Origin: Pseudomonas sp. GD03919
Lineage (GTDB): Bacteria > Pseudomonadota > Gammaproteobacteria > Pseudomonadales > Pseudomonadaceae
Assembly: GCF_029814935.1 (NCBI RefSeq)
Contig: NZ_CP104582.1
Location: 310,001-374,000 of the forward strand
Length of the DNA stretch: 64,000 bases
Reading direction: 5' to 3'
The notes beneath the pieces were generated by a model. It was not told where the DNA came from, made no database searches, and saw only the letters and a list, made by a program, of their open reading frames with translations. Positions 35,845 through 52,440 of the stretch are shown piece after piece. A program made the position numbers and the translations under genes. Position 1 is the stretch's first letter. Every line of letters begins with the position of its first letter.

Positions 35845-35899
35845 AGTGTGGAGCCGGCGCACGGGCAAACCTTATCCATGGGCGACATGGCTGGATTCG
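35845..35899 (-). promoter_or_regulatory. GbdR-type operator/promoter of gbcA (weakest of five copies)
   Basis: On the minus strand GTCG starts at 35886. After N9 comes AAGGTT as a poor -35, and after a 17-bp spacer CACACT as -10 (35850-35845). GTCGCCCATGGATAA closely matches GTCGCGGATGGATAA of the gbcB copy. The upstream half-site (CGAATC) is degenerate. Confidence 0.55.
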
Positions 35900-35941
35900 T
35901 TTCCGACGCGCCAGAGCCCGTGGCATGGGGGCAGGTCGCGA

Positions 35942-35996
35942 TAAGCATGCGAATGTCGCGGATGGATAAATGAAGGCGCACGGGCTTTCGCACAAT
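35942..35996 (+). promoter_or_regulatory. GbdR-type operator/promoter of gbcB
   Basis: TAAGCA at 35942, GTCG at 35955, TGGATA at 35963, AAATGA as weak -35 at 35968, a 17-bp spacer and CACAAT as -10 at 35991-35996. The 13-mer TTTCGCACAATCG around the -10 is identical to that of the glyA promoter. Confidence 0.65.
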
Positions 35997-36039
35997 CGCA
36001 GCCATATAGGCCGACATCCGGCCGCGTGGAGAGCCGTGC

Positions 36040-37143
36040 ATGACCACCAATGCCTTCCTCAACCCGGTTACCACTCAGACCTGGACCAATGGCCGCCACC
36101 TGGTGCGTTGCGTCAAGGTGATCCAGGAAACCTGGGATGTGCGCACCTTCTGCTTCATGGCCGATCAGCCGGTACTGTTTTTCTTCAAGCCGGGGCAGTT
36201 CGTTACCCTGGAGCTGGAGATCGACGGCCAGCCGATCATGCGTTCCTACACCATTTCCAGCTCGCCTTCGGTGCCTTACAGCTTCTCCATCACCATCAAG
36301 CGCGTACCCGGTGGCAAGGTGTCGAACTGGCTGCATGACAACCTCAAGGAAGGCGACGAGGTGCCGGTGCATGGCCCGGTCGGGCTGTTCAACGCCATCG
36401 ATTTCCCGTCCGAAAAAGTGCTCTACCTCTCCGGTGGCGTCGGCATTACCCCGGTGATGTCGATGGCGCGCTGGTTCTACGACACCAACGCCAACGTCGA
36501 CATGGTCTTCGTACACAGCGCCCGTTCGCCCAAGGACATCATCTACCAGCGCGAGCTGGAGCACATGGCCGCGCGCATCAACAACTTCAGCCTGCATGTG
36601 ATCTGCGAAAAGCATGGCCTGGGTGAATCCTGGGCCGGTTATCGCGGTTACCTGAACAAGCCGATGCTGGAGATGATCGCCCCGGACTACCTGGAGCGCG
36701 AGATCTTCTGCTGCGGCCCTACGCCCTACATGGCGGCAGTCAAGCGCCTGCTTGAAGTCTCTGGTTACGACATGAGCCGCTACCACGAGGAAGCCTTCGG
36801 CCCGACGCCGCCGGAGATTCGCGCCGAGGTCAAGGAGCTGGCCGCCGAGGCCGCCGACGCGCCGGAAGTGCCGGTGGCCGAGCTCAATCAGGTGGAGTTC
36901 GTCAGCACTGGCAAGAGCATCCGCGTGGCGCCCGGCGAAACCGTGCACGCCGCCGCTGCCAAACTCGGCCTGCATATTCCCAAGGCCTGCGGCATGGGTA
37001 TCTGCGGCACCTGCAAGGTGATGAAGACGGCGGGTGAGGTGGAGATGGAGCACAACGGCGGCATCACCGACGAGGACGTCGCCGAGGGCTATATCCTGTC
37101 GTGCTGCAGCGTGCCGAAAGGGGATGTGGCGATCGATTACTGA
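36040..37143 (+). CDS. gbcB: glycine betaine monooxygenase, ferredoxin reductase subunit
   Basis: Passes electrons from NAD(P)H to the GbcA oxygenase. The 367-residue protein has an FAD domain with MRSYTISSSP, a nucleotide-binding domain starting around LYLSGGVGITPVMSM, and a C-terminal plant-type [2Fe-2S] ferredoxin domain. That domain has Cys in ACGMGICGTC and the final Cys in LSCCS. It is divergent from gbcA. A REP element follows its stop. Confidence 0.96.
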   Translation: MTTNAFLNPVTTQTWTNGRHLVRCVKVIQETWDVRTFCFMADQPVLFFFKPGQFVTLELEIDGQPIMRSYTISSSPSVPYSFSITIKRVPGGKVSNWLHDNLKEGDEVPVHGPVGLFNAIDFPSEKVLYLSGGVGITPVMSMARWFYDTNANVDMVFVHSARSPKDIIYQRELEHMAARINNFSLHVICEKHGLGESWAGYRGYLNKPMLEMIAPDYLEREIFCCGPTPYMAAVKRLLEVSGYDMSRYHEEAFGPTPPEIRAEVKELAAEAADAPEVPVAELNQVEFVSTGKSIRVAPGETVHAAAAKLGLHIPKACGMGICGTCKVMKTAGEVEMEHNGGITDEDVAEGYILSCCSVPKGDVAIDY

Positions 37144-37192
37144 TCGTCACGGTCGCGGCTGAAGCCCCTCCCACGAGTGCGCGGCTTAGTCT

Positions 37193-37250
37193 GTAGCCCG
37201 GATGAAATCCGGGGCGGTTGAGCGATTGCCCCGGATTGCATCCGGGCTAC
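37193..37250. repeat. REP-like inverted pair (GTAGCCCGGAT family)
   Basis: GTAGCCCGGATGAAATCCGG plus GGC (37193-37215) faces GCCCCGGATTGCATCCGGGC plus TAC (37228-37250). It lies between the convergent gbcB and ltaE and may terminate both. A single arm of this family is at 23031-23052. Confidence 0.85.
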
Positions 37251-37293
37251 GGTCGCAGCTCAAGCCCCTTCCTCGGGCATGTCAGAGCGTTAT

Positions 37294-38334
37294 TCAGGCG
37301 CTCATCACTTCACGGATATCGGCGGCGAGCTGGCGTACGCGGGCCTCTTCGGTATCCCAGCTGCACATGAAGCGCGCGCCGCCAGCGCCGATGAAGGTGT
37401 AGAAGCGCCAGCCACGGGCAGTGAGGGCGGCGATGGCCGGCTCCGACAGTTGCAGGAACACGCCGTTGGCCTGTACCGGGAACATCAGGCTGACGCCGGG
37501 TACATCCGCCACCAGGCTGGCGAGCAACTGCGCACAACGGTTGGCGTGGTTGGCGTATTTCAGCCAGACATCGTTCTGCAGGATGCCGACCCAGGGCGCG
37601 GACAGGTAGCGCATCTTCGAGGCCAGTTGGCCGGCCTGCTTGCAGCGGTAGTCGAAGTCCTCGGCCAGATCCTTGTTGAAGAAGACGATGGCCTCACCGA
37701 CGGCCATGCCGTTCTTGGTGCCGCCGAAACACAGCACGTCGACGCCGGCCTTCCAGGTCAGTTCCGCCGGGCTGCAGCCGAGGAAGGCGCAGGCGTTGGA
37801 GAAGCGTGCGCCGTCCATGTGCAGGTGCAGGCCCAGTTCCTCGCAGACCTGGCTGATGGCACGGACTTCTTCCGCGCTGTATACGGTGCCGACTTCGGTG
37901 GCCTGGGTGAGGGTGACCACGCGCGGTTTCGGGTAGTGGATATCCTGACGCTTGCGGGCAATTTCGCGGATCGCTTGCGGCGTGAGTTTGCCGTTCTCGG
38001 TCTTGGCCAGCAGCAGTTTGGAGCCGTTGGAGAAGAACTCCGGCGCGCCGCATTCGTCGGTCTCGACGTGGGCGGTTTCCGAGCAGATCACGCTGTGGTA
38101 GCTCTGGCACAGCGAGGCCAGAGCCAGGGAGTTGGCGGCGGTGCCGTTGAAAGCGAAGAACACTTCACAGTCGGTCTCGAACAGGCGGCGGAAGTGGTCG
38201 GCAGCGCGCGCCGTCCATTCGTCATCGCCGTAGGCGCGCTGGTGGCCCTGGTTGGCTTCGGCCATGGCGGCCCAGGCTTCGGGACAGATGCCGGAGTAGT
38301 TGTCGCTGGCGAATTGCTGGGCATTGTCGGACAT
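37294..38334 (-). CDS. ltaE: low-specificity L-threonine aldolase
   Basis: PLP enzyme that splits threonine and allo-threonine into glycine and acetaldehyde, here tied to the glycine pool of the betaine pathway. The 346-residue fold type I protein has the substrate-site HMDGARFSNA block and the PLP Lys in LCFGGTKNGM. The ATG at 38334 is chosen because the family start SDNAQQFASDNYSGICPEA begins there. A threonine aldolase next to gbcAB is a known Pseudomonas arrangement. Confidence 0.93.
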   Translation of the reverse strand: MSDNAQQFASDNYSGICPEAWAAMAEANQGHQRAYGDDEWTARAADHFRRLFETDCEVFFAFNGTAANSLALASLCQSYHSVICSETAHVETDECGAPEFFSNGSKLLLAKTENGKLTPQAIREIARKRQDIHYPKPRVVTLTQATEVGTVYSAEEVRAISQVCEELGLHLHMDGARFSNACAFLGCSPAELTWKAGVDVLCFGGTKNGMAVGEAIVFFNKDLAEDFDYRCKQAGQLASKMRYLSAPWVGILQNDVWLKYANHANRCAQLLASLVADVPGVSLMFPVQANGVFLQLSEPAIAALTARGWRFYTFIGAGGARFMCSWDTEEARVRQLAADIREVMSA

Positions 38335-38563
38335 GGGCGTTCCTTCTCGAGCGGGGCCGGCAGGGAGCACCGGCGGATGGCGCTACTTTACTCCGCGCGG
38401 GCCCTGGCCTGGGGCCGCCAGGGCGACAACTTGTTGTATTCATGCGTACTGCAGGGTCGCGATCCGGACGACCGTTCGACCATTCGGCGGAACTCATGGC
38501 GACGCCGGGGGTTCACAACCCCAGGGCGGCGGTTTGCCGCCTGTCATCGAAAAGGAGTGCCTT

Positions 38564-38863
38564 ATGAACCATCGCCACCTGCTCGCCTTCGCCCTGTCGC
38601 TGGCCGTTGCCCTGCCGTTGTCTGCGGCCGAGTGGACGGCGCAGGCGAAAACCGAATTCGTCCAGCACTGCATCAACGGCGCGCCGGCCGGCTACGAGCA
38701 GCCGCAGCTGCAGGCCTATTGCGACTGCGCCGCCGACAAGGTCAGTCGGGAGTTCAGCGAGGCCGAAGTGCAGGCGATCAGTCGCCAGTCGCCGCCCGAT
38801 GCGGCGCTGCAGCAGCGTCTGGTCGACGCCAGCGGCAGCTGCGCCGGCAAGCTCAAGCCCTAA
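38564..38863 (+). CDS. small cysteine-containing exported protein, unknown
   Basis: A 99-residue protein with a signal peptide (LLAFALSLAVALPLSAAE). A short helical mature domain has four Cys (EFVQHC, QAYCDC, SGSC) that could form two disulfides in the periplasm. AAAGGAG precedes the ATG. I do not recognise the family. It is divergent from ltaE and precedes the long repeat-filled gap before sdaB. Confidence 0.75.
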   Translation: MNHRHLLAFALSLAVALPLSAAEWTAQAKTEFVQHCINGAPAGYEQPQLQAYCDCAADKVSREFSEAEVQAISRQSPPDAALQQRLVDASGSCAGKLKP

Positions 38864-39011
38864 GCCAAAGCGCATGGCTGGCGATGCCCTGCGGGGTGGC
38901 CTTGTGCGCTGACGGTGGTGCGGCGTGATTGGCCCTGGAGGAGCCGGCTTGCCGGCGAGCCTGTGCCGCGGTTGCCGGTAGGAGCCAGGCATCCCCGCGG
39001 CTGCTCCAGGT

Positions 39012-39540
39012 TCTGCCGCTTGATTGAGCAAATAACGCGCGCCCGGATCCAGGCCCCACAGGGCCTGGCCTGGCGCCGCCTGCCCACAGGCTGTGCACAG
39101 AACGGCGCACAGCATTTGTGCACAAGCATCTTCTATCTGATTGATTCTGCTCGATTTTTGCTCGATTGCCGGAAAGCCTTGCGCAGCCTGGGCTGCAGCC
39201 TGGACCGAACAGCCTATGCACAGTTTGCTCCACAGCATCTGTGTGCATAGTCCACCGCGCCGCAGCCTGACGCCGGCTGTCGCGGGTGGATAAGTCGCCG
39301 CGCCGCCGCGCCTGGCTGTTTCTCGGCCAGCCGCGGCAAGTCCAGTGCCGGTAGGGGCTGGCGCCGACTGATCACAGCTTATGCACAACCTGGTGCACAG
39401 TATCTGTGCATGGTCTGATCTATTAACTGCTTGATATCGTTCAATAAATACACGATTCACGGCAGGCCTTGATGGGCCTGGCCCGGCGGCTTCTGTGCAC
39501 GGCTTATCCACAGCTTGATCCACCCATCCTGTGCATAGCG
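39012..39540. repeat. four-unit degenerate repeat with DnaA-box-like motifs
   Basis: The 793-bp gap 38864-39656 holds no gene. Four cores of 36-39 bp start at 39089, 39212, 39377 and 39502 (steps 123, 165, 125). The general pattern is GCTTATGCACA, then TGCACAG, then CATC, then TGTGCATAG. Core 4 contains a perfect DnaA box TTATCCACA (39504-39512). Cores 2 and 3 have the TATGCACA variant. Between cores, an AT-rich piece (TTGAT...CAAATA type) and a GC hairpin (AGGCC...GGCCT) also recur, so the whole 125-165-bp unit is repeated. The left part of the gap (38864-39010) shows only GC-rich sequence. Confidence 0.8.
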
Positions 39541-39555
39541 GCAGGGGGGCGACTC

Positions 39556-39610
39556 TGAACACTTTCGCGTCGAAGTTGAGCAAATTTGCTGCCTAGCGAC
39601 ATCGGACAAT
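39556..39610 (+). promoter_or_regulatory. GbdR-type operator/promoter of sdaB
   Basis: TGAACA at 39556 and TGAGCA at 39577 form a direct repeat 21 bp apart, with GTCG at 39569. AAATTT is the weak -35 at 39582, followed by a 17-bp spacer and GACAAT as -10 at 39605-39610. It has the same geometry as in front of gbcA, gbcB, creatinase and glyA. Confidence 0.7.
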
Positions 39611-39656
39611 CTGCCGCACTGCGCCCCGTGGCGCATCCGAGCTAAGGAGTCCTCTC

Positions 39657-41033
39657 GTGGCCATCAGCGTATTCGACCTGTTCAAGATCGGCATCGGGCC
39701 GTCCAGCTCGCACACCGTGGGGCCGATGCGCGCCGCCGCGCTGTTCGTCGAGGCGCTGCGCGAGCGCCAGCTGCTGGCGCGGGTGCGGCGCATCGAAGTG
39801 CGCCTGTATGGCTCGCTGTCGGCCACCGGCGTCGGCCACGGCAGCGACCGTGCGGTGATCATGGGCCTGATGGGCGAGTGGCCGGATCGCATCGACCCGG
39901 CGCAGATCGTCCCGCGCATCGTCACGCTGCTCGAGCGCGGCGAGCTGCTGCTCGACGGCCGCCTGCCGGTCGCCTTCGACTGGGCGCGCGACATGCGCCT
40001 GCTGGAGGAGAACCTGCCCTACCACCCCAACGCCATGACCCTGGTGGCCGAGGGCGAGGGCGGCGAGCTGCATGCCGACACCTACTACTCGGTGGGCGGC
40101 GGTTTCGTCGTCGATGCCGCGCAGGCCGCTACCGGCGCGCTGGACCAGGACCACACCGCGCTGCCCTACGATTTCTCCAGCGGCGCCGAGCTGCTGCGCC
40201 TGTGCCGCCAGCATGGCCTGCGCGTGTCGCAGCTGATGCTGGCCAACGAAAAGGCCTGGCGCAGCGAGGCCGAGATCCGCGCCGGCCTGCTCGGGCTGTG
40301 GCAGGCCATGCAGGACTGCGTGGCCAACGGCCTGCGCGAGGAGGGCATCCTCCCCGGCGGGCTGAATGTGCGCCGGCGCGCGGCCAAGCTGCACCGCAGC
40401 CTGCAGGAGCTGGGCAGGCCCAACGTGATCGGCAGCACCATGAGCGCCATGGAATGGGTCAACCTCTACGCCCTGGCGGTCAACGAGGAAAACGCCGCCG
40501 GCGGGCGCATGGTCACCGCGCCGACCAACGGCGCGGCGGGGATCATCCCGGCGGTGCTGCACTACTACATGCGCTTCAACCCGGATGCCAGCGACGCCGA
40601 CGTGGTCGACTTCCTGCTGGCCGCGGCGGCGGTGGGCATCCTGTGCAAGAAGAACGCCTCGATCTCCGGCGCCGAAGTCGGCTGCCAGGGCGAGGTGGGC
40701 TCGGCCTGCGCCATGGCCGCGGCGGGTTTGGCCGAAGTGCTCGGCGCCAGCCCCGAGCAGCTGGAGAACGCCGCCGAGATCGGCCTGGAGCACAACCTGG
40801 GGCTGACCTGCGACCCGGTCGGCGGCCTGGTGCAGGTGCCGTGCATCGAGCGCAACGCGATCGCCGCGGTGAAGGCGATCAACGCGGCGCAGATGGCCCT
40901 GCGCGGCGACGGCGAGCACCACATCTCGCTGGACCGGGTGATTCGCACCATGCGTGACACCGGCGCCGACATGCACGACAAGTACAAGGAAACCTCGCGC
41001 GGCGGCCTGGCGGTGAGCCAGGTCGAGTGCTGA
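39657..41033 (+). CDS. sdaB: L-serine ammonia-lyase (iron-sulfur type)
   Basis: Deaminates L-serine to pyruvate, the exit of sarcosine- and glycine-derived carbon into central metabolism. The 458-residue protein combines the beta domain ([13 protein letters not shown] near the N-terminus) and the alpha domain with cluster cysteines in [23 protein letters not shown] start at 39657 with TAAGGAG at 39643-39649. The gene is strongly GC-biased. It carries the shared 55-bp operator and is followed closely by a GlxA-type regulator gene. Confidence 0.96.
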
Positions 41034-41069
41034 TTCTCCTGCCCGCTGGTTTTGTCGAGGACTGCCGCA

Positions 41070-42059
41070 ATGACCCGTTTCGAGAAACTGCCGACCCTTG
41101 CCGCCGTGGAGTCGATCGGCTTTCTGCTGGATGACCAGTTCAGCCTGGTAGCCTTGGCCGCCGCGCTGGAGCCACTGCGCCTGGCCAACCAGCTGGCCGG
41201 GCGCAGCCTGTACCGCTGGCAGACGCTTAGCCTGCAGGGCCGGCCGCTGCGCGCCAGCAACGGCATGTGGATCACCCCGGATGGCGCCGCCGACGCGGCG
41301 GGCGAGCTGCACGGGCTGATCCTCTGTGGCAGCGATGCCGCGCAGGCGCGCGAGCGGCCCGAACTGGAGCGCTACCTGCGGCAGCAGGCGCAGCCCGGGC
41401 GGTTTCTCGGCGCGCTCGGCAGCGGCAGCTGGACGCTGGCGCGCGCCGGTCTGCTGGAGGGCCACCAGTGCAGCACCAGCTGGCGCTGCCGGGTCGATCT
41501 GCAGCGCGCGTTTCCCGGCGTGGCGCTGAGCGCCCAGCCCTTCGTCGTCGACCGCGACCGCGCTACCGCCGCCGGCGGCGCGGCGGGGCTGGAACTGATG
41601 CTGCAGCTGATCGCCGGCCGGCATGGCCAGCCGCTGGTCAGGGCGATCGCCGAGACCCTGGCGTTCGAGCTGGTCCGCTGCGAGCCGCTGCCGGCGCAGA
41701 TGCCCTTGCACCTGTGCGGCGACGAGCCCAGCCCCAAGCTGCGCGAGGTGATCAGCCTGATGGAGAGCAACCTCGAGGAGCCGCTCGAACTCGGCCAACT
41801 GGCGGGGTTCGTCGCGTTGTCGCGGCGCCAGCTGGAGCGCTTGTTCGAGAAATACCTGCAGTGCTCGCCGGCGCGCTACTACCTGCGCCTGCGCCTGGTG
41901 CGCGCGCGCCAGTTGCTGCGTCGTACCCGCCTCAGCGTGGTCGAGGTGGCAGCCGCTTGCGGCTTCCTCTCGGCGCAGACCTTCTCGCGCTGCTACCGCG
42001 AGCACTTCGCCCTCTGCCCCAGCGACGAGCGGCGTACGCCGCAGGTGGCGCTGCACTGA
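41070..42059 (+). CDS. GlxA family AraC-type regulator, GbdR-like paralogue (divergent)
   Basis: The 329-residue protein has an N-terminal DJ-1/PfpI-like domain (SIGFLLDDQFSLVALAAALE) and a C-terminal AraC helix-turn-helix pair (about 230-325, with LSRRQLERLFEKYLQCSPARYY and VVEVAAACGFLSAQTFSRCYREHF). The overall family is that of GbdR, the betaine-responsive activator. The DJ-1 domain is unusual. Where the other paralogue in this window reads GICTGSH, this one reads GALGSGSW, without Cys. It lies 36 bp after sdaB and probably shares its transcript. Target and ligand are unproven. Confidence 0.85.
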   Translation: MTRFEKLPTLAAVESIGFLLDDQFSLVALAAALEPLRLANQLAGRSLYRWQTLSLQGRPLRASNGMWITPDGAADAAGELHGLILCGSDAAQARERPELERYLRQQAQPGRFLGALGSGSWTLARAGLLEGHQCSTSWRCRVDLQRAFPGVALSAQPFVVDRDRATAAGGAAGLELMLQLIAGRHGQPLVRAIAETLAFELVRCEPLPAQMPLHLCGDEPSPKLREVISLMESNLEEPLELGQLAGFVALSRRQLERLFEKYLQCSPARYYLRLRLVRARQLLRRTRLSVVEVAAACGFLSAQTFSRCYREHFALCPSDERRTPQVALH

Positions 42060-42176
42060 CCGCCGTCCCTCCGGCTGTCACCCTTTCGAGGCCCGTCCGT
42101 GCTGGCAGCGCGGTACGGGTCTCTTTTTTTGCGCGCGGAAATTGCCCGCTCGGCAGGGCATAGGCCGCAGCGGATC

Positions 42177-42231
42177 TGACCAACTTCGGGTCGGAATCGT
42201 ACAAAAGTTCGCGTAGGGCATCTGGTGCAAT
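42177..42231 (+). promoter_or_regulatory. GbdR-type operator/promoter of the creatinase operon
   Basis: TGACCA at 42177, GTCG at 42190, CGTACA at 42198, AAAAGT as weak -35 at 42203, a 17-bp spacer and TGCAAT as -10 at 42226-42231. The spacing is identical to that of the four sister sites. Confidence 0.65.
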
Positions 42232-42293
42232 CCTCTCAACGACCCGCCAAACCGGCCGGTCGCCTTACCGCAGACAGCAAAGGGATTCACACC

Positions 42294-43505
42294 ATGCAGA
42301 TGCCCCAAACCCTCCGAATCCGCAACGGCGAAAAGGTCAAATCGACGTTCTCCGCCGAGGAATACGCCAACCGTCATGCCAAGCTGCGCGCCCACCTGGC
42401 GGCCGAGAACCTCGACGCGGCGGTCTTCACCTCGTATCACAACATCAACTACTACTCGGACTTCCTCTACTGCTCCTTCGGCCGCCCCTACGCCCTGGTG
42501 GTGACCCAGGACGCCGTGGTCAGCATCAGCGCCAATATCGACGGCGGCCAGCCCTGGCGCCGCACCGTCGGCACCGACAACATCGTCTACACCGACTGGC
42601 AGCGCGACAACTACTTCGTCGCCATCCAGCAGGCGCTGCCGCGCGCGCGCCGCATCGGCATCGAGTTCGACCACCTGAACCTGCAGAACCGCGACAAGCT
42701 GGCCGCCCGCTATCCGGACGCCGAGCTGGTCGACGTCGCCGCGCCCTGCATGCGCATGCGCATGATCAAGTCCGCCGAGGAGCATGTGATGATCCGCCAC
42801 GGCGCACGCATCGCCGACATCGGCGGCGCGGCGGTGGTCGAGGCCCTGCGCGACCAGGTGCCGGAGTACGAGGTGGCCCTGCACGCCACCCAGGCCATGG
42901 TCCGCGCCATCGCCGAGACCTTCGACGAGGTCGAGCTGATGGACACTTGGACCTGGTTCCAGTCCGGCATCAACACCGACGGCGCGCACAACCCGGTGAC
43001 CACCCGCAAGGTGAACAAGGGCGACATCCTCAGCCTCAACTGCTTCCCGATGATCGCCGGCTACTACACCGCGCTGGAGCGCACCCTGTTCCTCGACCAC
43101 TGCTCCGACGACCACCTGCGCCTGTGGCTGGCCAACGTCGAGGTGCACGAGGCCGGCCTCAAGCTGATCAAGCCCGGCGCACGCTGCAGCGACATCGCCA
43201 AGGAACTCAACGAGATCTTCCTCAGCCACGACCTGCTGCAGTACCGCACCTTCGGCTACGGCCACTCCTTCGGCACCCTCAGCCACTACTACGGCCGCGA
43301 GGCCGGCCTGGAGCTGCGCGAGGACATCGACACCGTACTGGAACCGGGTATGGTGGTGTCGATGGAGCCGATGATCATGCTGCCCGAGGGCCTGCCCGGC
43401 GCCGGCGGCTATCGCGAACACGACATCCTGATCGTCAACGAGCAGGGCGCGGAGAACATCACCAAGTTCCCCTACGGCCCGGAGCGCAACATCATCCGCA
43501 AATAG
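42294..43505 (+). CDS. creatinase (creatine amidinohydrolase)
   Basis: Hydrolyses creatine to sarcosine and urea, feeding the sarcosine oxidase encoded downstream. The 403-residue M24-fold protein is very close to the well-studied Pseudomonas putida creatinase as I remember it. It has the same start (QMPQTLRIRNGEKV) and the catalytic His at 232 (INTDGAHNPVT). The ATG at 42294 gives exactly that start. It heads a probable operon with creatininase (80 bp later) and a BCCT carrier. Confidence 0.95.
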   Translation: MQMPQTLRIRNGEKVKSTFSAEEYANRHAKLRAHLAAENLDAAVFTSYHNINYYSDFLYCSFGRPYALVVTQDAVVSISANIDGGQPWRRTVGTDNIVYTDWQRDNYFVAIQQALPRARRIGIEFDHLNLQNRDKLAARYPDAELVDVAAPCMRMRMIKSAEEHVMIRHGARIADIGGAAVVEALRDQVPEYEVALHATQAMVRAIAETFDEVELMDTWTWFQSGINTDGAHNPVTTRKVNKGDILSLNCFPMIAGYYTALERTLFLDHCSDDHLRLWLANVEVHEAGLKLIKPGARCSDIAKELNEIFLSHDLLQYRTFGYGHSFGTLSHYYGREAGLELREDIDTVLEPGMVVSMEPMIMLPEGLPGAGGYREHDILIVNEQGAENITKFPYGPERNIIRK

Positions 43506-43585
43506 TCTCTGCCACCGCCGTGCCCTTGCCGGGCACGGCCCCATTCGGGTCGCCTGCCGCCAGCAGGTGACCAGGAGGTCACTTA

Positions 43586-44371
43586 ATGAATGACAGCGTG
43601 TTCGTCGGCGAACTGAGCTGGAAGGAATACGAAGCCCTGGTGGCCGACGGCCAGCGCGTGCTGTTCCTGCCGGTCGGCGCCCTGGAGCAGCACGGTCACC
43701 ACCTGTGCATGGACGTCGACGTGCTGCTGCCCACCGCGGTCAGCCAGCGCGTCGCCCAGCGTATCGGTGGCCTGGTGCTGCCGGCTCTGCCGTACGGCTA
43801 CAAGTCGCAGCAGAAGTCCGGCGGCGGCAACCATTTCCCCGGCACCACCAGCCTGGACGGGGCCACCCTCAGCCACACGGTGCTGGACATCATCCGCGAG
43901 CTCGGGCGCCACGGCGTACGCCGCCTGGTGCTGATGAACGGTCACTACGAGAACGCCATGTTCCTGGTCGAAGGCATCGACCTCGGCCTGCGCGAGCTGC
44001 GCTACGCCGGCATCGACGATTTTCGTGTGGTGCTGCTGTCCTACTGGGACTTCGTCAAGGACCCGCAGGTGATCGCCCAGCTCTACCCGGACGGTTTCCT
44101 TGGCTGGGATATCGAGCATGGCGGCGTCTTCGAAACCTCGCTGATGCTCGCCCTCTACCCGCAGCGAGTGGACATGAGCCGCGTGGTGGATCACCCGCCG
44201 GCGACCTTCCCGCCTTACGACCTCTACCCCATCGATCCTTCGCGCACCCCGGCACCCGGCACCCTGTCCTCGGCGCGCGGCGCCAGCCGCGAGAAGGGCG
44301 AGCTGATTCTCGAGGTGTGCGTAGAGGGTATCGCCAAGGCGGTCGGCGAGGCGTTCGAGAACGCCCCCTGA
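43586..44371 (+). CDS. creatininase (creatinine amidohydrolase)
   Basis: Interconverts creatinine and creatine with two metal ions. The 261-residue protein keeps the residues known for the Pseudomonas enzyme at the same numbers: metal ligands Glu34, His36, Asp45, His120 and Glu122, plus active-site Trp154, Trp174 and His178. GGAGG is close before the ATG. With creatinase it forms a two-step route from creatinine to sarcosine. Confidence 0.95.
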   Translation: MNDSVFVGELSWKEYEALVADGQRVLFLPVGALEQHGHHLCMDVDVLLPTAVSQRVAQRIGGLVLPALPYGYKSQQKSGGGNHFPGTTSLDGATLSHTVLDIIRELGRHGVRRLVLMNGHYENAMFLVEGIDLGLRELRYAGIDDFRVVLLSYWDFVKDPQVIAQLYPDGFLGWDIEHGGVFETSLMLALYPQRVDMSRVVDHPPATFPPYDLYPIDPSRTPAPGTLSSARGASREKGELILEVCVEGIAKAVGEAFENAP

Positions 44372-44446
44372 CGACGCAGACGCGACATCCGCATGACTTC
44401 GCCCACTGATTCCGACAATGACAAGAATGATCGAGAGGCTAGCATT

Positions 44447-46081
44447 ATGAAAGCGCACCAATGCGTGGCGGAACCCGCATCAACCTTCGTCGGGCCGCCA
44501 CAGGAGGCCCGCGTGGACATCTCCGAGAGCGCCTGGCTCAAGGGTCTCAACCCCGTGGTTACCCTCGGCTCGCTGCTGGTGATCGTGGCGGTAGTGGTCG
44601 GCCTGCTGCTGTTCCAGGAACAGGCGGCGCTGCTGTTCGACCGGGTGCGCAGCGGCATCACCTACTACTTCACCTGGTACTACGTACTGATCGCCGCGTT
44701 GTTCCTGTTCTTCAACGCCTGGCTGGCCTGCAGCCGCTTCGGGCGCATCCGCCTGGGCCGCCAGGACGAGCGGCCCGAGTTTGGCTACTTCTCCTGGTTC
44801 GCCATGGTGTTCTCCGCCGGACAGGGCATCGGCCTGATCTTCTGGAGCATCGCCGAGCCGATGTTCCACCTGCAGGGCAACCCTTTCAGCGACGGCAGCA
44901 TGAACGCCGCGACGGCGGAAAGCGCCATGCGCATCACCTTCTTCCACTGGGGCCTGCATGCCTGGTCGATCTACTGCATCGTCGCCCTGGCGTTGGCCTA
45001 CGCCGCCTTCCGCAAGAACCTGCCGCTGACCATACGCTCCACCCTGCGCCCGCTGTTCGGCCGGCTGATGGACGGCCCGCTCGGCCATGCGGTGGATATC
45101 CTGGCAATCCTCGCCACCATCTTCGGCGTCGCCACCTCGCTGGGCCTCGGTGCGCAGCAGATCAATGCCGGGCTCAGCCGTCTGCTCGGCCTGGACAGCT
45201 CGATCCTGGTGCAGCTCAGCCTGATCGGCGGTATCACTCTGGTCGCCGTGCTGTCGGCGGTGTCCGGCGTGACCCGCGGAATCAAGCGGCTCAGCGAGTT
45301 GAACATCTGGTTGAGCTTCGTGCTGATCCTGTTCTTCTTCATCTGGGGGCCGAGCCGCTACCTGATCATGTCGCTGGTCGACGCCACCGGCGATTACCTG
45401 GCGCACTTCATCGAAATGAGCTTCTGGATGGACGCCAACCGCCAGGATCCGGGCGCCTGGGAAGGCTGGAAATCCAGCTGGCAGGGCTGGTGGACGGTGT
45501 TCTACTGGGGCTGGTGGCTGTCCTGGGCGCCCTTCGTCGGCGTGTTCATCGCCCGGGTTTCCCGCGGGCGGACCATCCGTGAGTTCATCCTCGGGGTGAT
45601 TCTGGTGCCATCGCTGATGACCTTCGTGTGGATCGCCGCATTCGGCGGTACCGCCATGAGCCACGAGCTGTTCGATCAGGGTGGCGTCGCCGCCGCGGTA
45701 TCCCAGGACGTCGCCAGCGCCTTCTTCGCCACCGTGGACAGCATGGCGCTCGAGGGCCTCGGCACCCTGGCGCTATGGCTGGGCACCCTGCTGGTGGCCA
45801 CCTACTTCATCACCTCGGCCGACTCCGCCACCTTGGTGCTGACCACCATCATGTCCCACGGCGGCATTCACCCGGCCAAGCGCCATCGGGTGTTCTGGGG
45901 CGCGCAGCAGGGGGTGGTGGCCGGTGTGCTACTGTTCGCCGGCGGCACTGCCTCGCTGGCCACCCTGCAGACCGCGGCTATCGCCGGCGCCCTGCCGTTC
46001 TCGCTGATCATGCTGCTGATGTGCCTGAGCCTGACCAAGGCCCTGCATGCCGAGGCTGCGGTTCCCGCGCCGGCCAGCTGA
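44447..46081 (+). CDS. BCCT family transporter, candidate creatine/creatinine or betaine carrier
   Basis: The 544-residue protein has about twelve transmembrane segments and the BCCT signature GWWLSWAPFVGVFIARVSRG. In TM3 the glycine stretch reads GQGIG (125-129), where betaine carriers have GMGIG. Substrate preference may therefore differ. The ATG at 44447 is preferred for its GAGAGG ribosome-binding site. An in-frame ATG at 44393 is an alternative. Location right after creatininase suggests uptake of creatinine, creatine or sarcosine, which is inference. Confidence 0.88.
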   Translation: MKAHQCVAEPASTFVGPPQEARVDISESAWLKGLNPVVTLGSLLVIVAVVVGLLLFQEQAALLFDRVRSGITYYFTWYYVLIAALFLFFNAWLACSRFGRIRLGRQDERPEFGYFSWFAMVFSAGQGIGLIFWSIAEPMFHLQGNPFSDGSMNAATAESAMRITFFHWGLHAWSIYCIVALALAYAAFRKNLPLTIRSTLRPLFGRLMDGPLGHAVDILAILATIFGVATSLGLGAQQINAGLSRLLGLDSSILVQLSLIGGITLVAVLSAVSGVTRGIKRLSELNIWLSFVLILFFFIWGPSRYLIMSLVDATGDYLAHFIEMSFWMDANRQDPGAWEGWKSSWQGWWTVFYWGWWLSWAPFVGVFIARVSRGRTIREFILGVILVPSLMTFVWIAAFGGTAMSHELFDQGGVAAAVSQDVASAFFATVDSMALEGLGTLALWLGTLLVATYFITSADSATLVLTTIMSHGGIHPAKRHRVFWGAQQGVVAGVLLFAGGTASLATLQTAAIAGALPFSLIMLLMCLSLTKALHAEAAVPAPAS

Positions 46082-46167
46082 GTGGCACTGATCGCGCAGC
46101 GCGATCGGCCCTTGCCCCTAGCCCCCACTTGTGGGGGTACCCATAACGACAACAAGAGGCCTCATCT

Positions 46168-46281
46168 ATGAACTCCTGGGTACTCACGCTCTTCGTAGCG
46201 CTAAACATCCTCATGTTCCTGATCGCGGCCGCCACCTATGTGTGCCGTGCCGCCCACGAAACCTCCCGACCGGCGGAGTAA
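46168..46281 (+). CDS. 37-residue membrane peptide, symporter small accessory protein candidate
   Basis: ATG at 46168 to TAA at 46281 encodes a peptide with one transmembrane helix (WVLTLFVALNILMFLIAAAT) and a short charged tail. AAGAGG precedes it. Its stop is 5 bp before the ATG of the sodium:solute symporter, so the two are almost certainly co-translated. Short one-helix proteins before SSS transporters are annotated in databases as symporter small accessory proteins, a role inferred mainly from context. Confidence 0.75.
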   Translation: MNSWVLTLFVALNILMFLIAAATYVCRAAHETSRPAE

Positions 46282-46286
46282 GCGCA

Positions 46287-47744
46287 ATGGACTTCTATGA
46301 ACTGTTCAACTGGGCTCTGCTGGTCGTCACCTTCGCGGTAATGATCGGAATAGGTTTTCTCTCCTCGCGCAAAGTCAGGGACAGCGACGAAGGCGGCTTT
46401 CTGCTCGCCGGCCGAAGCCTGGGCGCCTTCGTCGGCGCCAGCACCATAGTCGCCACCGGCTTCAGCGGCTGGGGCTTTATGGGCTCGCCGGCGGTGGCCT
46501 ACGAGTTCGGCGCCATCGAGTTGCTGGGTAACTTCTTCTTCGCCCCGGCGATGATGATCGCCGTGCTGTTCTTCGCCAATCACATGCAGAAGCGCGCCCT
46601 GTGCATGGGCAGCAACACCATCCCCGAGTACATCGGCCAGATCCATGGCGGCGGCGCCGGCGGGCGCCTGCTGCAGGGGGTGGCGGCGGTCATGACCATC
46701 GTCCTGCTGATGGTCTTTCTGGTCAGCCAGATCAAGGCGGTGGGCATGCTCGGCGCGTCCTGGCTGAACATCGATATGACCAGCAGCGCCTGGCTGATGA
46801 TCTCGGTGATCATCCTCTACACCATGCTCGGCGGCCTGGCTGCGGTGGCCTGGACCGACACCGTGATGGTCTGCGGCATGGCCCTGGCCGCGGTGGTGAT
46901 CATGCTGCAGATGTTCACCAGCGTCGACCTGGGGCTGTGGGAGGCCAACCTCAACGGTATCGACCCGAACCTGCTCAACCCGGTCACCGCGGCGCCCTAC
47001 GGCGCGAGCAAGGCTTCGGTGTTTCTGGTGCTGCCCTATGCCTTCCTGTTCGCCGCGGTGTTGCCCTATATGGCCATCCGCTTTCTGGCCTTCCGGCCCA
47101 AGGTGAAGATGCACAAGGTCGGGATCTACGTGGCCATTCTCGGCGGCCTGCTCAGCCTGATCCCCATCGTCGGCCTGTACATGCGCGCCTTCGGCCCGCA
47201 GCTGGCCGATCCTGACAACGCCATGCCGATGTACCTGCAGACCTTCATGCACCCGGCGCTGCAGGGCTTGATCACCCTGTTCATCATCTTCGCCATGAAG
47301 TCCACCGCCAACTCCATGCTGCATACCGTGGCCTCGGCGACCTCGCACGACCTGCGCCTGGCACTGAACAAGCATGCCGAGACAGATTCGCCGCGTGCGC
47401 TGATCGTCAACCGTGTCGCGGTGGTGGCGCTGGGGCTGCTCGGCTTGCTGATGATGATGTACGCGCCGCCGTTCATGCTGTCCTGGCTCGGCATCCTCGG
47501 CTCCGGCACCCTGCTGGCGGCGATGATCGGCCCGGTGTTCATCTCCACCTTCTGGCGTGGCAACGTCGCCGGCGCGCTGACGGCCATGCTGGTCGGCTTC
47601 TTCACCAGCGGCGGTCTGTTGCTGAGCACCGATATCGGCTGGGTGGAAGGACCGTTGCTCGGTTGCCTGGTCTCGTCGCTCTGCTACGTGACGGTATCCG
47701 TCCTGACCCGCAGCCGACTGCCGGTGTTGCAGCGCGGGCTCTGA
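46287..47744 (+). CDS. sodium:solute symporter (SSS family)
   Basis: The 485-residue protein has about thirteen transmembrane segments. The SSS core motifs are visible at the N-terminus ([20 protein letters not shown], then ATGFSGWGF) and in [11 protein letters not shown]. The substrate is unknown. It may carry creatine, sarcosine, glycine, urea-derived or betaine-type compounds, given the cluster. The ATG at 46287 lies 5 bp after the small membrane peptide. A terminator follows at 47762. Confidence 0.88.
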
Positions 47745-47761
47745 GTCCTGCTCTGTTGAGC

Positions 47762-47795
47762 AAGGCCACGGTCTTTCTGGAGTCCGTGGCCTTTT
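47762..47795 (+). terminator. rho-independent terminator after the SSS gene
   Basis: AAGGCCACGG and CCGTGGCCTT form a 10-bp stem with a 12-nt loop and a following TTTT, closing the creatinase to SSS unit. Confidence 0.88.
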
Positions 47796-47850
47796 GCTAT
47801 CCGTAGCCCGCCGGTGGCGGGCCCAAGGTTTCTACAGGAGTTCGAACACG

Positions 47851-49734
47851 ATGAGGATCAGCACCAAGGTGGCGTTAGCCGCAGCATTGGTTCTGCTGTT
47901 GACCACCAGCCTGTTGTCGCTGATTCTGATCAGCCAGGTGCGCGGCACCTTGCGCCAGCAGGTCGAAACCAGCATCAACGAATCGAGCACGGCGCTGGCG
48001 CGCCGGATCGAGGCCTGGCTGAACGCCAAGTTGCAACTGATCGACATGGCTGCGCAGCAGATAGATCTCAATTTCAGCGAGTCGCAGATAGAACAGGTTT
48101 TCGCATCAGTCGTGCTCAAGGAGCAGTTTCTCTCCATGTTCGGCGGGCTGGAGGCGACCGGAGGGCGAGCTCTCAGCAACGATCCGGGTTGGCATCCTCC
48201 CGCCGATTGGGACGCCCGCCAGCGGCCCTGGTATGCGCAGGCCCGGGACGCCTCGCGAGCCGTGCTAACCGAACCCTACGCGGTAGCCGGGACCGGTGAG
48301 GTCCTGATATCTGCAGTGGCTCGGTTCAGCGACGTCGGGGCGTTCAAGGGAGCATTCGGTGGCGACATCCGCTTGCAGACGGTGGCCGACGCGATCAACA
48401 CCCTGGATTTCAACGGGGCTGGTTATGCCTTCCTGTTGAGCCGCAGTGGCACCATCATTTCCCACCCTGATACCCGCATGAACGGCAAGGCCTACAGCGA
48501 CCTGTTCGACGGCCAGACACCTCCGCTGGACAAGGGGCTGCAGGAGGCCTGTGACGATGGGCGGCTGCTGCTTTCCTTCACGCCCCTGAGCGATCTTGCG
48601 GATATGGATTGGTACATCGGTGTGGTGTTGGACAAGCGCTTGGTCATGGCCGAGGTCGATGCCCTCAGTCAACGTGCCGTGCTCGGCACCCTGCTCGGGG
48701 TGGTTGTCAGCCTGGTGCTGCAGGGGTTGTTGATGAGGCGGCTGCTCGAGCCCCTCGATCGGCTCAGGGCTTCTTTGCGCGAGGTCAACAGCGGTCAGGG
48801 CGATCTCACGCGTCGTCTGCCGGCCAGCGGTAGCGATGAGATCGCCCTGGTCTCGCGCGAGTTCAACGGCTTTCTGCAGTACCTGCAGGGTTTGATCGGC
48901 AAGATGGTCGGTGGCTCGCAGCGGGTGCGTGCCAGTACTGCCCTGACCTGCAACGAAGCCGAGGTGTCCGCCGAGCGTTTGCAGGCGCAATTGCAGGAGC
49001 TCGACCAACTGGCCACGGCGATGCAGGAAATGGCGTCCACTGCCGAGGAGGTTGCGCGCAACGCCCAGGCCGCCGCCCAGACGGCGACCGGCGCCAACCT
49101 GGAAACCGCAAGCGGCCTCGTCGTGGTTGCGCGCACCAGCCGGGCGATCAAGCAGTTGGCCGCCGATATGGATGACACCGGCCAGGCAATCAATCGGCTG
49201 GTCGGGCTCAGCCACGACATCGAGTCGATTCTTGCGGTGATCGTCAGTATTGCCGAGCAGACCAACCTGCTGGCCCTCAACGCGGCAATCGAGGCGGCCC
49301 GTGCCGGGGAGTCTGGGCGAGGTTTTGCCGTGGTGGCTGACGAGGTTCGCTCGCTGGCCTCGCGTACCCAGCAATCGACCGAGGAGATCCGCCAGATGAT
49401 CGACCATCTCCAGAGCGGGGTGAAGGAGGTGGAGGCGCGCATGCGGCAGAGTCGCGACAGCGCCATCTGGACCGCCGAAGATGCCGGCGACGCCAATCGG
49501 CTGCTCGAGAGTGTTGGTGAGGCGATCGCCCGGATCAGCGACATGAACCTGCAGATCGCCGCCGCGGCCGAGCAGCAGAGCGCCACTACCGAGGAGATCA
49601 ACCGCAATACCTGCAACATCCGCGACATCAGCCAGCTGGTCGCCGCCGGCGCTCAACAGCAGGTCCGGCAATGTGGGCTGATGGTCGAGCAGGTGGTCCA
49701 ACAGGATCAGTTGCTGGGTCGTTTCAACGTGTGA
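47851..49734 (+). CDS. methyl-accepting chemotaxis protein with dCache ligand domain
   Basis: The 627-residue receptor has TM1 at about 10-30 and a periplasmic dCache domain to about 275. TM2 ([16 protein letters not shown]), HAMP and the signalling domain with [20 protein letters not shown] follow. The ligand pocket motif reads W120-D121...R125-P-W127-Y128, Tyr143, Asp172. That matches the amino-acid/amine dCache pattern except for Trp-Asp in place of the first Tyr. CAGGAG precedes the ATG. Lying inside the creatinine and sarcosine cluster, it may sense one of these amines, which is inference. No C-terminal CheR pentapeptide is seen. Confidence 0.92.
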
Positions 49735-49830
49735 GCCTGCTGCGCGGAGGAGGGCGCTCAGTTGTGGTGAAGACGGCAAGCGCCCTGGCGAGACGGTCTC
49801 CGGGGGGCCGCGAGCGTTGTGCAGCAGCGC

Positions 49831-50829
49831 TCAGCCCAAGGGGCTCTGCTTGCGCTCGCCGCGCGGCGACAGGCCGAACTGGCGGCTGTAGCACTTGGAA
49901 AAGTGCGCCGGCGAGGCGAAGCCGCAAGCCAGGGCGACGTCGCGCACCTGGGCATCGCTGCGCAGCAGCAGCTCGCGCGCCCGGTTCAGCCGCAGCTCCA
50001 GGTAGTACTGGCTGGGCTTGCGCCCCAGGTACTTGTGGAACAACCGCTCCAGCTGGCGCACCGACACCTCGTTGAGCTGCGCCAGCTCCTCCAGTTCCAG
50101 CGGTTCCTCCAGATTCGACTCCATGATCGCCACGATCTGGCTCAGCTTGGGCTGGGCGTTGCCGATCTTCTGCCGCAACGGGATGCGCTGCTGGTCGCGG
50201 GCGCTGCGCACCCGGTCGCACAGCATCAGCTCGGCGGCGCGGCTGGCGATCTCGGCGCCGTCGGGCTCGCGGCTGACCAACTGCAGGGTCATGTCCATCG
50301 CGGCGGTGCCGCCCGAGCAGGTGTAGCGATCGCGATCCAGCTCGTACAGCTGGTTGGAGATGATGATTCCCGGGAACTTCTCCTTGACCTGCTCGATGTC
50401 TTCCCAGTGCAGGGTGCAGCGATAACCCTTGAGCAGGCCGGCGCAGGCCAGCAGGTGGCTGCCGGTGCAGATGCCGCCCAGCGGCACGCCCTGTTCGGCC
50501 AGCCGGCGTAGCCATGCGAGCAGCGTCCGGTCGTACTTCTGCGGGATCGGGTTGGCGCCGACGACGAACAGGGCGTCCAGCGGTGGCGCCTGCTCGAAGC
50601 TGGTGTCCGCCAGCACGCGCATGCCGTTGCTGGCCGGCACCGGCTCGTTGCCGGCGGCGATAAGCAGGGTACGGTACAGCGGTCGTCTGGCGGCCAGGCC
50701 GGCCATGCGCAGGGTCTCGATGGACGAGGCGAAGCCGATGGCGGTGAAGTTGGGGATCAGCAGGAAGCCGAAGGTCTTCAGCGTGCCGCAGGCAGGCGCT
50801 TGCGGTTGCAGATATTCGGTGTAGCTCAT
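49831..50829 (-). CDS. GlxA family AraC-type regulator, GbdR/SouR-like
   Basis: The 332-residue protein has a DJ-1/PfpI-type domain (FGFLLIPNFTAIGFASSIETLR) with Cys retained in GGICTGSHLLACAG. The C-terminal AraC domain (VSVRQLERLFHKYLGRKPSQYY, VRDVALACGFASPAHFSKCYSRQFG) binds DNA. It is divergent from glyA-sox, whose promoter has the shared operator. It is therefore the best local candidate for the regulator of sarcosine use. GbdR itself may lie elsewhere. The start at 50829 begins SYTEYLQPQAP. A longer in-frame form to 50898 is less likely. Confidence 0.87.
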   Translation of the reverse strand: MSYTEYLQPQAPACGTLKTFGFLLIPNFTAIGFASSIETLRMAGLAARRPLYRTLLIAAGNEPVPASNGMRVLADTSFEQAPPLDALFVVGANPIPQKYDRTLLAWLRRLAEQGVPLGGICTGSHLLACAGLLKGYRCTLHWEDIEQVKEKFPGIIISNQLYELDRDRYTCSGGTAAMDMTLQLVSREPDGAEIASRAAELMLCDRVRSARDQQRIPLRQKIGNAQPKLSQIVAIMESNLEEPLELEELAQLNEVSVRQLERLFHKYLGRKPSQYYLELRLNRARELLLRSDAQVRDVALACGFASPAHFSKCYSRQFGLSPRGERKQSPLG

Positions 50830-51034
50830 CTGGTGGTGCTCCTGTCCGGTCCTCGCCAGCGGGAGGCGGGTCAACCCTGTTCGGCCCCCGGCGCGCATGA
50901 CGCGATCTTACACCGAATTGGCCCTGGCCCGGCGCTGTGGTCCAGGGCGCCACCTGTCTCTGCGCGACATCCCCGGCGTTGGGCCGCCAGGCACCGCCGT
51001 CACCGCCCGTCGCGTGATTCGTGGCAGGTCAGTT

Positions 51035-51089
51035 TGAGCATTTTGACGTCGTATTTAGGCAAATGACCCCCCAGGCTATTTCGCACAAT
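51035..51089 (+). promoter_or_regulatory. GbdR-type operator/promoter of glyA-soxBDAG
   Basis: TGAGCA at 51035 and TAGGCA at 51056 are 21 bp apart, with GTCG at 51048. AAATGA is the weak -35 at 51061, followed by a 17-bp spacer and CACAAT as -10 at 51084-51089. The rest of the 357-bp gap 50830-51186 shows no gene and no glycine riboswitch that I can recognise. Confidence 0.7.
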
Positions 51090-51186: not shown

Positions 51187-52440
51187 ATGTTCAGCAAGCA
51201 GGATCAGATTCAGGGTTACGACGACGAGTTGCTCGCGGCGATCAATCAGGAAGAGCGCCGTCAGGAAGAGCATATCGAGCTGATCGCCTCGGAGAACTAC
51301 TGCAGCCAGCGCGTGATGGAAGCGCAGGGCAGCGGCCTGACCAACAAGTACGCCGAAGGTTATCCGGGCAAGCGTTATTACGGTGGTTGTGAATATGTCG
51401 ACAAGGTCGAGCAGCTGGCCATCGACCGCGCAAAGGCGCTGTTCGGCGCCGACTACGCCAACGTCCAGCCGCACTCCGGCTCCTCGGCCAACAGCGCTGT
51501 CTACCTGGCGCTGCTCAATGCCGGCGACACCATCCTCGGCATGAGCCTGGCCCACGGCGGTCACCTGACTCACGGCGCCAAGGTGTCGTCCTCGGGCAAG
51601 CTCTACAACGCCGTACAGTACGGTCTGGACACCGCTACCGGTCTGATCGATTACGACGAGGTCGAGCGTCTGGCCGTGGAGCACAAGCCGAAGATCATCG
51701 TCGCCGGCTTCTCCGCCTATTCCAAGACCCTGGATTTCCCGCGCTTTCGTGCCATTGCCGACAAGGTCGGCGCGCTGCTGTTCGTCGATATGGCGCATGT
51801 GGCGGGCCTGGTCGCTGCGGGTCTGTACCCGAACCCGATCCCCTTTGCCGATGTGGTCACCACCACCACCCACAAGACCCTGCGCGGCCCGCGTGGCGGC
51901 CTGATCCTGGCCAAGGCCAACGAAGAAATCGAGAAGAAGCTCAACTCCGCCGTGTTCCCGGGTGCCCAGGGCGGCCCGCTGATGCACGTCATCGCCGCCA
52001 AGGCGGTGTGCTTCAAGGAGGCCATGGAGCCGGAGTTCAAGGCTTACCAGCAGCAGGTGATCGACAACGCTCAGGCCATGGCCAGGGTGTTCATCGAGCG
52101 CGGCTACGAGGTGGTCTCTGGCGGTACCGACAACCATCTGTTTTTGCTCAGCCTGATCAAACAGGGCCTGACCGGCAAAGAGGCCGATGCTGCCCTGGGC
52201 CGCGCCGGCATCACCGTGAACAAGAACGCCGTGCCCAACGACCCGCAGTCGCCGTTCGTGACCTCGGGCATCCGCATCGGTACGCCGGCTGTGACCACTC
52301 GAGGTTTCAAGGTCGCCCAGTGCCAGGCGCTGGCCGGCTGGATCTGCGACATCCTCGATCACCTCGGCGATGCCGATGTCGAGGCGCAGGTGGCCAGGCT
52401 GGTCGCCGGGCTGTGCGCGGATTATCCGGTCTATCGCTAA
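51187..52440 (+). CDS. glyA: serine hydroxymethyltransferase
   Basis: PLP enzyme joining glycine and 5,10-methylene-tetrahydrofolate to serine. Here it consumes both products of sarcosine oxidase. The 417-residue length is standard. The active-site Lys lies in [15 protein letters not shown], and the IELIASENY start motif is present. The ATG at 51187 follows GGGAG. It is the first gene of the glyA-soxB-soxD-soxA-soxG order known from P. aeruginosa (glyA1). Another glyA copy presumably serves biosynthesis. Confidence 0.97.

Follow-up and report, generated by a model that had tools for sequence, protein, structure and literature searches.

Five promoters in a catabolic gene cluster of Pseudomonas sp. 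GD03919, in front of gbcA, gbcB, sdaB, the creatinase gene creA and glyA, carry variants of one operator design. We consider it quite likely that these sites, as predicted from their sequences, are tandem operators of paralogous GATase1-AraC regulators (GATRs) of the GbdR, ArgR and CdhR kind, with overlapping specificity. The DNA analysed, referred to here as the window, is a stretch of 64 000 nt at positions 310001–374000 of the 4.66-Mb single-contig genome, and its cluster holds gbcA, gbcB, sdaB, regC, creA, crnA, BCCT and SSF transporter genes, a chemoreceptor gene, regS, and glyA followed by sox genes (Table 1). We would class the five sites among the tandem operators of the GATR or ARG-box kind, already known, as class II-like members with a fixed phase to the −10 element.

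The original prediction had proposed a common 55 bp promoter architecture at these five places. Each of the five sequences was present at the position and on the strand reported, the stretch between GTCG and the end of the −10 element measured 42 bp at all five, and the + strand had just two copies of the 13-mer TTTCGCACAATCG, at 35986 in the gbcB −10 region and at 51079 in that of glyA. The proposed half-sites fared less well: TGANCA is literally present at sdaB, creA and glyA but not at gbcB (TAAGCA) or gbcA (CGAATC), and the second half-site, TGNNCA, is literal only at sdaB (TGAGCA), the other promoters reading CGTACA (creA), TAGGCA (glyA) and TGGATA (gbcA and gbcB). What the sites have in common, in place of TGANCA, is a GTCG-led half-site with a second copy at 20–21 bp, clearest at gbcA and gbcB, where the earlier layout left the distal GTCG unused. 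The literal motif TGNNCA-N6..8-GTCG-N4-TGNNNA was tried and rejected, being too loose and partly wrong, with 39 whole-genome matches that include one (sdaB) of the five sites. The attribution to an AraC-family type of site beside the −10 element, of the GbdR/ArgR kind, stood at all five promoters, so that the betaine and creatinine units share one architecture.

We propose that each half-site would comprise an A-box (GTCG at best) and a B-box about 4 bp further on, with copies repeating every 21 bp, or two helical turns. The proximal copy would overlap the −35 position, and the −10 element would end 42 bp (41–43) after the proximal A-box. The −35 positions of the five window sites read AAGGTT, AAATGA, AAATTT, AAAAGT and AAATGA, none of them TTGACA-like. 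The three sequence features of class II promoters, namely a proximal half over the −35 position, 42 bp to the −10 element and no consensus −35, were found at five of five sites. As no good −35 is present, RNA polymerase would be recruited by the proximal regulator subunit touching sigma, that is, by class II activation. If transcription starts about 7 bp after the −10 element, the proximal half-site would be centred near −41 and the distal one near −62. Centres near −41 and −62 are the class II position of AraC-family activators.

The fixed phase is retained in relatives. Their sites were anchored on GTCG, which is therefore present by construction; the distance to the −10 element was left free (−10-like ends were sought at 34–50 bp), and loci whose genes were truncated close to the start were excluded from the counts. 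The −10 element ended at 42 bp in 52 of 52 creA, 12 of 12 glyA, nine of nine sdaB, three of three gbcB and two of three gbcA orthologues, two of the 52 creA orthologues carrying a second −10 candidate at 47 bp. Across the aligned sites, the spacer held 0.45–0.98 bits per base against 1.2–2.0 for the −10 element (the A-box has 2.0 by anchoring).

A larger sample came from 38 distinct gbcA–gbcB intergenic regions (41 before identical ones were dropped). A gbcA-directed GTCG-N17-GTCG was found in all 38, against 0.32 expected from shuffles, and the −10 element behind it finished at 42 bp in 24 regions and at 43 bp in 14. The gbcB GTCGs were 20 bp apart in 38 of 38, with the −10 end at 42 bp in 30 and at 43 bp in eight. 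Because 34 of the 38 regions had been fetched via a gbcB-site match, the figure for gbcB is in part built into the sample, which does not apply to the figure for gbcA. Two of the three intergenic regions that had gbcB without a gbcB-site match (G020 and G044) contained both tandems. The shuffle expectations keep single-base content only and ignore common descent, and general conservation was addressed by a separate control: among 296 4mer-N17-4mer pairs in the window gbcA/gbcB intergenic region, two were kept in all 37 others, and these were the gbcA and gbcB tandems.

The design also extends beyond the genus. Outside Pseudomonas, GTCG-N17-GTCG was found in 14 of 27 creA upstream regions, against 0.12 expected, each with a TA..AT −10 element ending at 41 bp (eight) or 42 bp (six). 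Thirteen of these 14 belong to Thauera, Aromatoleum, Burkholderia, Caballeronia, Paraburkholderia or a betaproteobacterial bin, and the remaining one to a proteobacterial bin. Three more of the 27 (L086, L087 and L097) have GGCCA boxes at a strict 21 bp with the −10 element at 41 bp. A related-looking layout with GGCCA-like boxes was seen at the Paraburkholderia and Burkholderia creA promoters of L081, L083, L086, L087, L095, L097 and L102.

Each site was also held out in turn and ranked among about 128 000 positions covering both strands of the window, the training sites being set aside, using matrices built either from the other four window sites or from those plus their orthologues. With operator and −10 bases combined, gbcB, sdaB, creA and glyA each ranked first in both versions. 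With operator bases only, the ranks in the two versions were 1 and 1 for sdaB, 1 and 1 for glyA, 3 and 2 for gbcB, 11 and 3 for creA, and 350 and 172 for gbcA. When operator-only matrices were trained on the orthologues of a single promoter, the glyA matrix ranked sdaB 2, creA 3, gbcB 4 and gbcA 3156; the sdaB matrix ranked glyA 2, creA 3 and gbcB 52; the creA matrix ranked sdaB 2, glyA 3 and gbcB 714; and the gbcB matrix ranked glyA 2, sdaB 50 and creA 929. Chance was rejected as an explanation through held-out scoring, which backs four of the five sites, and through the conservation footprints; overall, we regard the sites as genuine, conserved and far better than expected at random. The matrix failures had raised the suspicion that the gbcA site was false, and this was ruled out by its own footprint in the intergenic regions.

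Scanning whole genomes with a matrix, the check proposed for the original prediction, separated the sites into sub-types. Three models without structure were used: R1, from 13 sites of all five promoters; R2, without creA and gbcA; and R3, from creA only, without the window's site. The latter two were built to avoid the circularity of R1. Among the 150 of 820 first-look candidates scored in its own genome, R1 gave five places with E ≤ 0.01, which are the five sites, a result that is partly by construction as R1 includes them; the next-best place scored 13.6 bits (E 0.39). In 79 genomes of the family, with at most 64 candidates scored per genome, R1 matched 70 places in 39 genomes, located before gbcB (36), glyA (13), creA (eight), sdaB (six), gbcA (one, in its own genome), crnA (one), a binding-protein gene of polyamine-transport appearance (one) and a short GATR remnant (one), with none of the query genes behind the other three. 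As these matches are mainly orthologues of the training promoters, they demonstrate the specificity of the layout and are not an independent discovery. R2 recovered gbcB, sdaB and glyA; its score for creA within the window was 10.7 bits (E 0.036), and gbcA received 3.6 bits. R3 recovered creA, at 54.8 bits, and missed the four remaining sites. The outcomes of R2 and R3 point to one design with two separable sub-types, and to gbcA as a third variant. At L164 (genome G064) and at L174 and L162 (both G062), creA-type sites precede a creatininase gene and the polyamine-transport-like binding-protein gene, and an sdaB-like site precedes the GATR remnant.

The glyA promoter shows a second arrangement of the same elements. 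Twenty-seven genomes had a soxB orthologue and no window-type glyA match; 20 of these glyA regions were fetched, and 19 remained once one stretch had proved too short (L179–L181 and L183–L198). Seventeen of the 19 had GTCG-N17-GGCG, in which the distal half-site holds the strong GTCG, together with a TACCAT or TAACAT that ended at 42 bp (40–44 allowed; 1.08 expected for the tandem alone). The other two have GACG in the proximal box and fall outside the pattern for that reason. With the strong GTCG distal in 17 of 19 at the 42 bp distance, the strong A-box has switched half-site, leaving the geometry unchanged.

The half-sites resemble a published box. In the accessible part of its description, the ARG box of Pseudomonas ArgR reads TGTCGCN6GNAA and occurs in tandem with 5 bp between copies, giving a 21 bp period, the second repeat being generally less conserved (PMC10963909). 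In the window, the proximal half-sites differ from this box at one of ten positions (gbcA and gbcB), two (sdaB and glyA) or three (creA), and those of orthologues at zero to four. By these counts, the ARG box describes the proximal half-sites better than the TGANCA/TGNNCA layout does. The distal copies at sdaB, creA and glyA have TGANCA plus GGCG, AGCG or GGTC, not GTCG, and five to six of ten mismatches. In another reading, the gbcA and gbcB boxes could also be ArgR sites, the common layout then mainly reflecting competition or repression by this arginine regulator. Among the 38 intergenic regions, the proximal half-site of gbcB matches the ARG box perfectly in 34 (at most one mismatch in 37), and that of gbcA has at most one mismatch in 36. 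Furthermore, a published table for P. alloputida places cbcV, dgcA, dgcB, gbcA, soxG, fdhA and betX under negative control by ArgR (PMC10963909). Yet that effect may be indirect, creA and sdaB fit the ARG box poorly (two to three and two to four mismatches, respectively, in orthologues), and one-mismatch ARG boxes are common, with 28 in the window; we regard this explanation as very improbable. A narrower idea, that ArgR might compete with GbdR for these boxes, would be a testable addition to the preferred reading.

The genome encodes paralogous regulators of this family that could serve the sites. Four of its GATRs match GbdR or regS at E 1e-60: GbdR, regC, regS and an ArgR-like protein, the last of which we take to be ArgR from its neighbour gene. 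GbdR lies outside the window at 4.11 Mb (NF052371, 656 bits; cut-off 480). Its gene lies near an electron-transfer-flavoprotein alpha gene and two further genes, which from family matches and gene order we take to be dgcAB, and a few kilobases away are genes reading like a choline/betaine ABC transporter. The window encodes two GbdR paralogues, regC (51% identical to this genome's GbdR) and regS, which at 386 and 377 bits fall below the cut-off and so are not filed as GbdR. In the tree, regC lies inside the GbdR clade (26 rows, 100/94), and regS inside a clade of Pseudomonas creA neighbours (48 rows, 100/100) that is joined by a betaproteobacterial sister at 98/75. A regS protein (at least 78% identity) was present in eight of eight genomes with creA (G000, G039, G056, G062, G064, G071, G072 and G078) and in none of the 71 others, and regS shares 68–75% identity with the protein encoded next to creA in loci of the putida and fluorescens groups. 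In the first helix-turn-helix (HTH1), GbdR, regC and regS all have the stretch RQLERLF, where the ArgR-like protein reads RQLERIF; the second (HTH2) differs. Taking the pairing of helix to box from the family, a shared HTH1 and a variable HTH2 would fit an invariant A-box and variable B-boxes. Another GATR (40–45% identical to GbdR or regC), on a long branch apart from regC, lies just upstream of creA in L042, L044, L046, L047, L048, L050, L053 and L075, and is also beside sdaB in L044, L046 and L050.

The original prediction read the shared promoter as one regulon joining betaine and creatinine catabolism. In its simplest form, GbdR alone would bind all five sites, including that of creatinase. 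The layout is indeed common to all five promoters, and all 36 genomes with a gbcB-site match carry GbdR at ≥80% identity. However, creA forms a separate sub-type in the R2 and R3 models, regS tracks creA in eight of eight genomes, and tandems precede creA in Betaproteobacteria, where regulators of the regS sister clade adjoin creA in many loci. Moreover, G078, a draft genome that is 99% complete, yielded no GbdR match above 53% and no gbcB match above 32%, yet keeps the glyA (44.5 bits), sdaB (34.4 bits) and creA (28.4 bits) sites. We consider a single activator unlikely on these grounds.

Conversely, two separate regulons could exist, if in this lineage regS or regC had taken over the sox, sdaB and creatinine units from GbdR and left gbcA and gbcB to it. 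G078, which keeps the other sites with neither GbdR nor gbcB found, fits this, as do the start of the regC open reading frame (ORF) 18 bp past sdaB (41033–41052) and the divergence of regS from glyA. Against it stand the 13 genomes with window-type glyA sites, which comprise the eight regS/creA genomes and G002, G009, G011, G027 and G047. All of the latter five have GbdR, and only G009 among them has a regC-like protein, a label that outside the window means 51–55% identity to GbdR and not a match to the regC query. The remaining four keep the same type of glyA site with neither regS nor any non-GbdR protein at least 50% identical to GbdR. The cross-training ranks for gbcB and glyA likewise join the two sets of sites that such a split would part, and we find this explanation improbable. 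Together, G078 and the four genomes lacking regS and regC-like proteins indicate that no one of GbdR, regC and regS alone explains the glyA site.

The shared architecture therefore survives from the one-regulon claim, and the single regulon with a single activator does not; the claim should, in our view, give way to overlapping paralogous regulons. Similarly, the prediction that the activator is GbdR or one of the two regulators of the window is now better put as several overlapping regulators, with GbdR outside the window and two paralogues inside it. Under the preferred reading, GbdR would most likely drive gbcA and gbcB, regS would most likely drive creA and the downstream genes for crnA, the transporters and the chemoreceptor, and either GbdR or the paralogues encoded in the window may act on glyA-sox and sdaB-regC. 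Given its position 18 bp after sdaB, regC is probably transcribed from the sdaB promoter, and the pair would form a feed-forward loop if regC acts there.

Several observations weigh against five GATR operators of one design. The gbcA site ranked 31 and 24 in the two held-out versions with operator and −10 bases, ranked no better than 235 in all four single-promoter trainings, and was missed by every cross-promoter matrix. The genome-wide R2 list does not contain creA, while a place at 2513300 scores 15.2 bits. All five distal copies have five to six of ten mismatches to the ARG box in the 21 bp register. The patterns used found neither tandem in the gbcA–gbcB intergenic region of G002 (L200), though gbcA, gbcB and a 79% GbdR are present, and neither box type in ten of the 27 non-Pseudomonas creA upstream regions. 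The conserved relatives are non-independent samples. Finally, CdhR, a regulator of the same kind, is described in the accessible part of its report as class I at its own promoter (PMC5806209), so class II placement is not a family-wide rule.

Further candidate sites were sought near GbdR. At L142:3686–3749 (G000 4116686–4116749, + strand), a GTCG-N17-GTCG operator lies about 440 bp before the genes reading like a choline/betaine ABC transporter, and its 17.0 bits are the best operator-only score in the 36 kb around GbdR. The end of a −10-like TATCGT lies 41 bp further along, but the matrix that includes the −10 element gives the place just 6.5 and does not rank it first. This operator is a possible sixth site. 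Visual inspection of the 400 bp preceding the dgcA-like gene at L141:11557 revealed no tandem.

The coordinates of the five sites and of the genes around them are collected in Table 1. The creatinase start was placed at ATG 42294, which is conserved among relatives, and not at the ORF start at 42225. The creA, crnA, BCCT, SSF and chemoreceptor genes follow one another at 42294–49734 with gaps of 21–80 bp, and probably form an operon for creatinine uptake, sensing and breakdown. The closest named relative found is Pseudomonas mendocina EF27, with 96–100% identity over the 11 cluster proteins found there; in the 21 kb compared (L026), it gave no match to crnA, BCCT or the chemoreceptor gene. The regS promoter region has an extended −10 element, TGTAAGAT (50905–50912, − strand), seen by eye in many relatives, and this promoter is probably of a simple sigma-70 type.

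Table 1. Predicted operator-promoters and the genes of the cluster, in window coordinates
Feature	Position	Strand	Details
gbcA operator-promoter	35845..35907	-	Distal GTCG 35907-35904; proximal GTCG 35886-35883; -10 CACACT 35850-35845
gbcB operator-promoter	35934..35996	+	Distal GGTCGC from 35934; proximal GTCG 35955-35958; -10 CACAAT 35991-35996
sdaB(-regC) operator-promoter	39548..39610	+	Proximal GTCG 39569-39572; -10 GACAAT 39605-39610
Creatinase operator-promoter	42169..42231	+	Proximal GTCG 42190-42193; -10 TGCAAT 42226-42231
glyA-sox operator-promoter	51027..51089	+	Proximal GTCG 51048-51051; -10 CACAAT 51084-51089
gbcA, glycine betaine monooxygenase oxygenase subunit	34438..35724	-	NF058607, 804 bits, cut-off 670
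gbcB, glycine betaine monooxygenase reductase subunit	36040..37143	+	NF058606, 688 bits, cut-off 500
sdaB, L-serine ammonia-lyase	39657..41033	+	TIGR00720, 690 bits
regC, GATase1-AraC regulator, GbdR paralogue	41052..42059	+	NF052371, 386 bits (below cut-off of 480); PF12833 and PF01965
creA, creatinase	42294..43505	+	PF01321 and PF00557; start ATG 42294 kept in relatives
crnA, creatininase, first of four genes in line behind creA	43586..44371	+	PF02633
regS, GATase1-AraC regulator of the creatinase-neighbour group, divergent from glyA	49831..50898	-	NF052371, 377 bits (below cut-off); tree
glyA, serine hydroxymethyltransferase, head of the sox genes	51187..52440	+	NF000586, 657 bits

As well as accounting for five promoters, the design tentatively suggests that the whole regulator family may use a common promoter chassis, in which a 21 bp tandem with the −10 end 41–43 bp after the proximal A-box is fixed across Gamma- and Betaproteobacteria, and specificity lies in the B-box and in which half-site is strong. 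If so, glyA would display the chassis directly, with the strong GTCG proximal in one group of genomes and distal in another at the same geometry, and paralogues with different ligands (betaine, creatine, arginine) could take over or share operons without remodelling of the promoter. The motif to seek is corrected from TGANCA to a GTCG-led tandem with a fixed phase to the −10 element, and the one-regulon picture is replaced by a testable set of paralogous regulators with a common promoter design. Natural contrasts, such as a genome in which no GbdR was found and the two types of glyA promoter, could reveal how sister activators split or share the catabolism of nitrogen compounds.

The sites and regulators can be set beside three known systems. 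CahR reportedly regulates creatinase in P. putida KT2440, and regS is its putative counterpart by synteny. Like CahR, reportedly a GATase1-AraC regulator beside creatinase, regS is a predicted GATase1-AraC regulator of the creatinase-neighbour group, here co-occurring with creA; unlike CahR, its gene lies between the creatinine genes and glyA-sox in this lineage. With the tandem ARG boxes of ArgR, as far as the accessible part of PMC10963909 describes them, the window sites share the half-site core, the usual weakness of one copy and, most clearly at gbcA and gbcB, the tandem order and 21 bp period. They differ in their targets, which are genes of betaine, sarcosine and creatine catabolism, in the B-boxes of the creA and sdaB half-sites and in the poor fit of the distal copies. 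Lastly, the CdhR half-sites, described in the accessible part of PMC5806209 as GGTCGC with a 15 bp spacer and as very similar to GbdR, SouR and ArgR sites, are matched by the distal box of the window gbcB promoter; the five sites share the core, the predicted regulator family, the betaine pathway and, most clearly at gbcA and gbcB, the 21 bp period with the GbdR and CdhR sites of P. aeruginosa, and differ from CdhR, described there as class I, in that their proximal half overlaps the −35 position.

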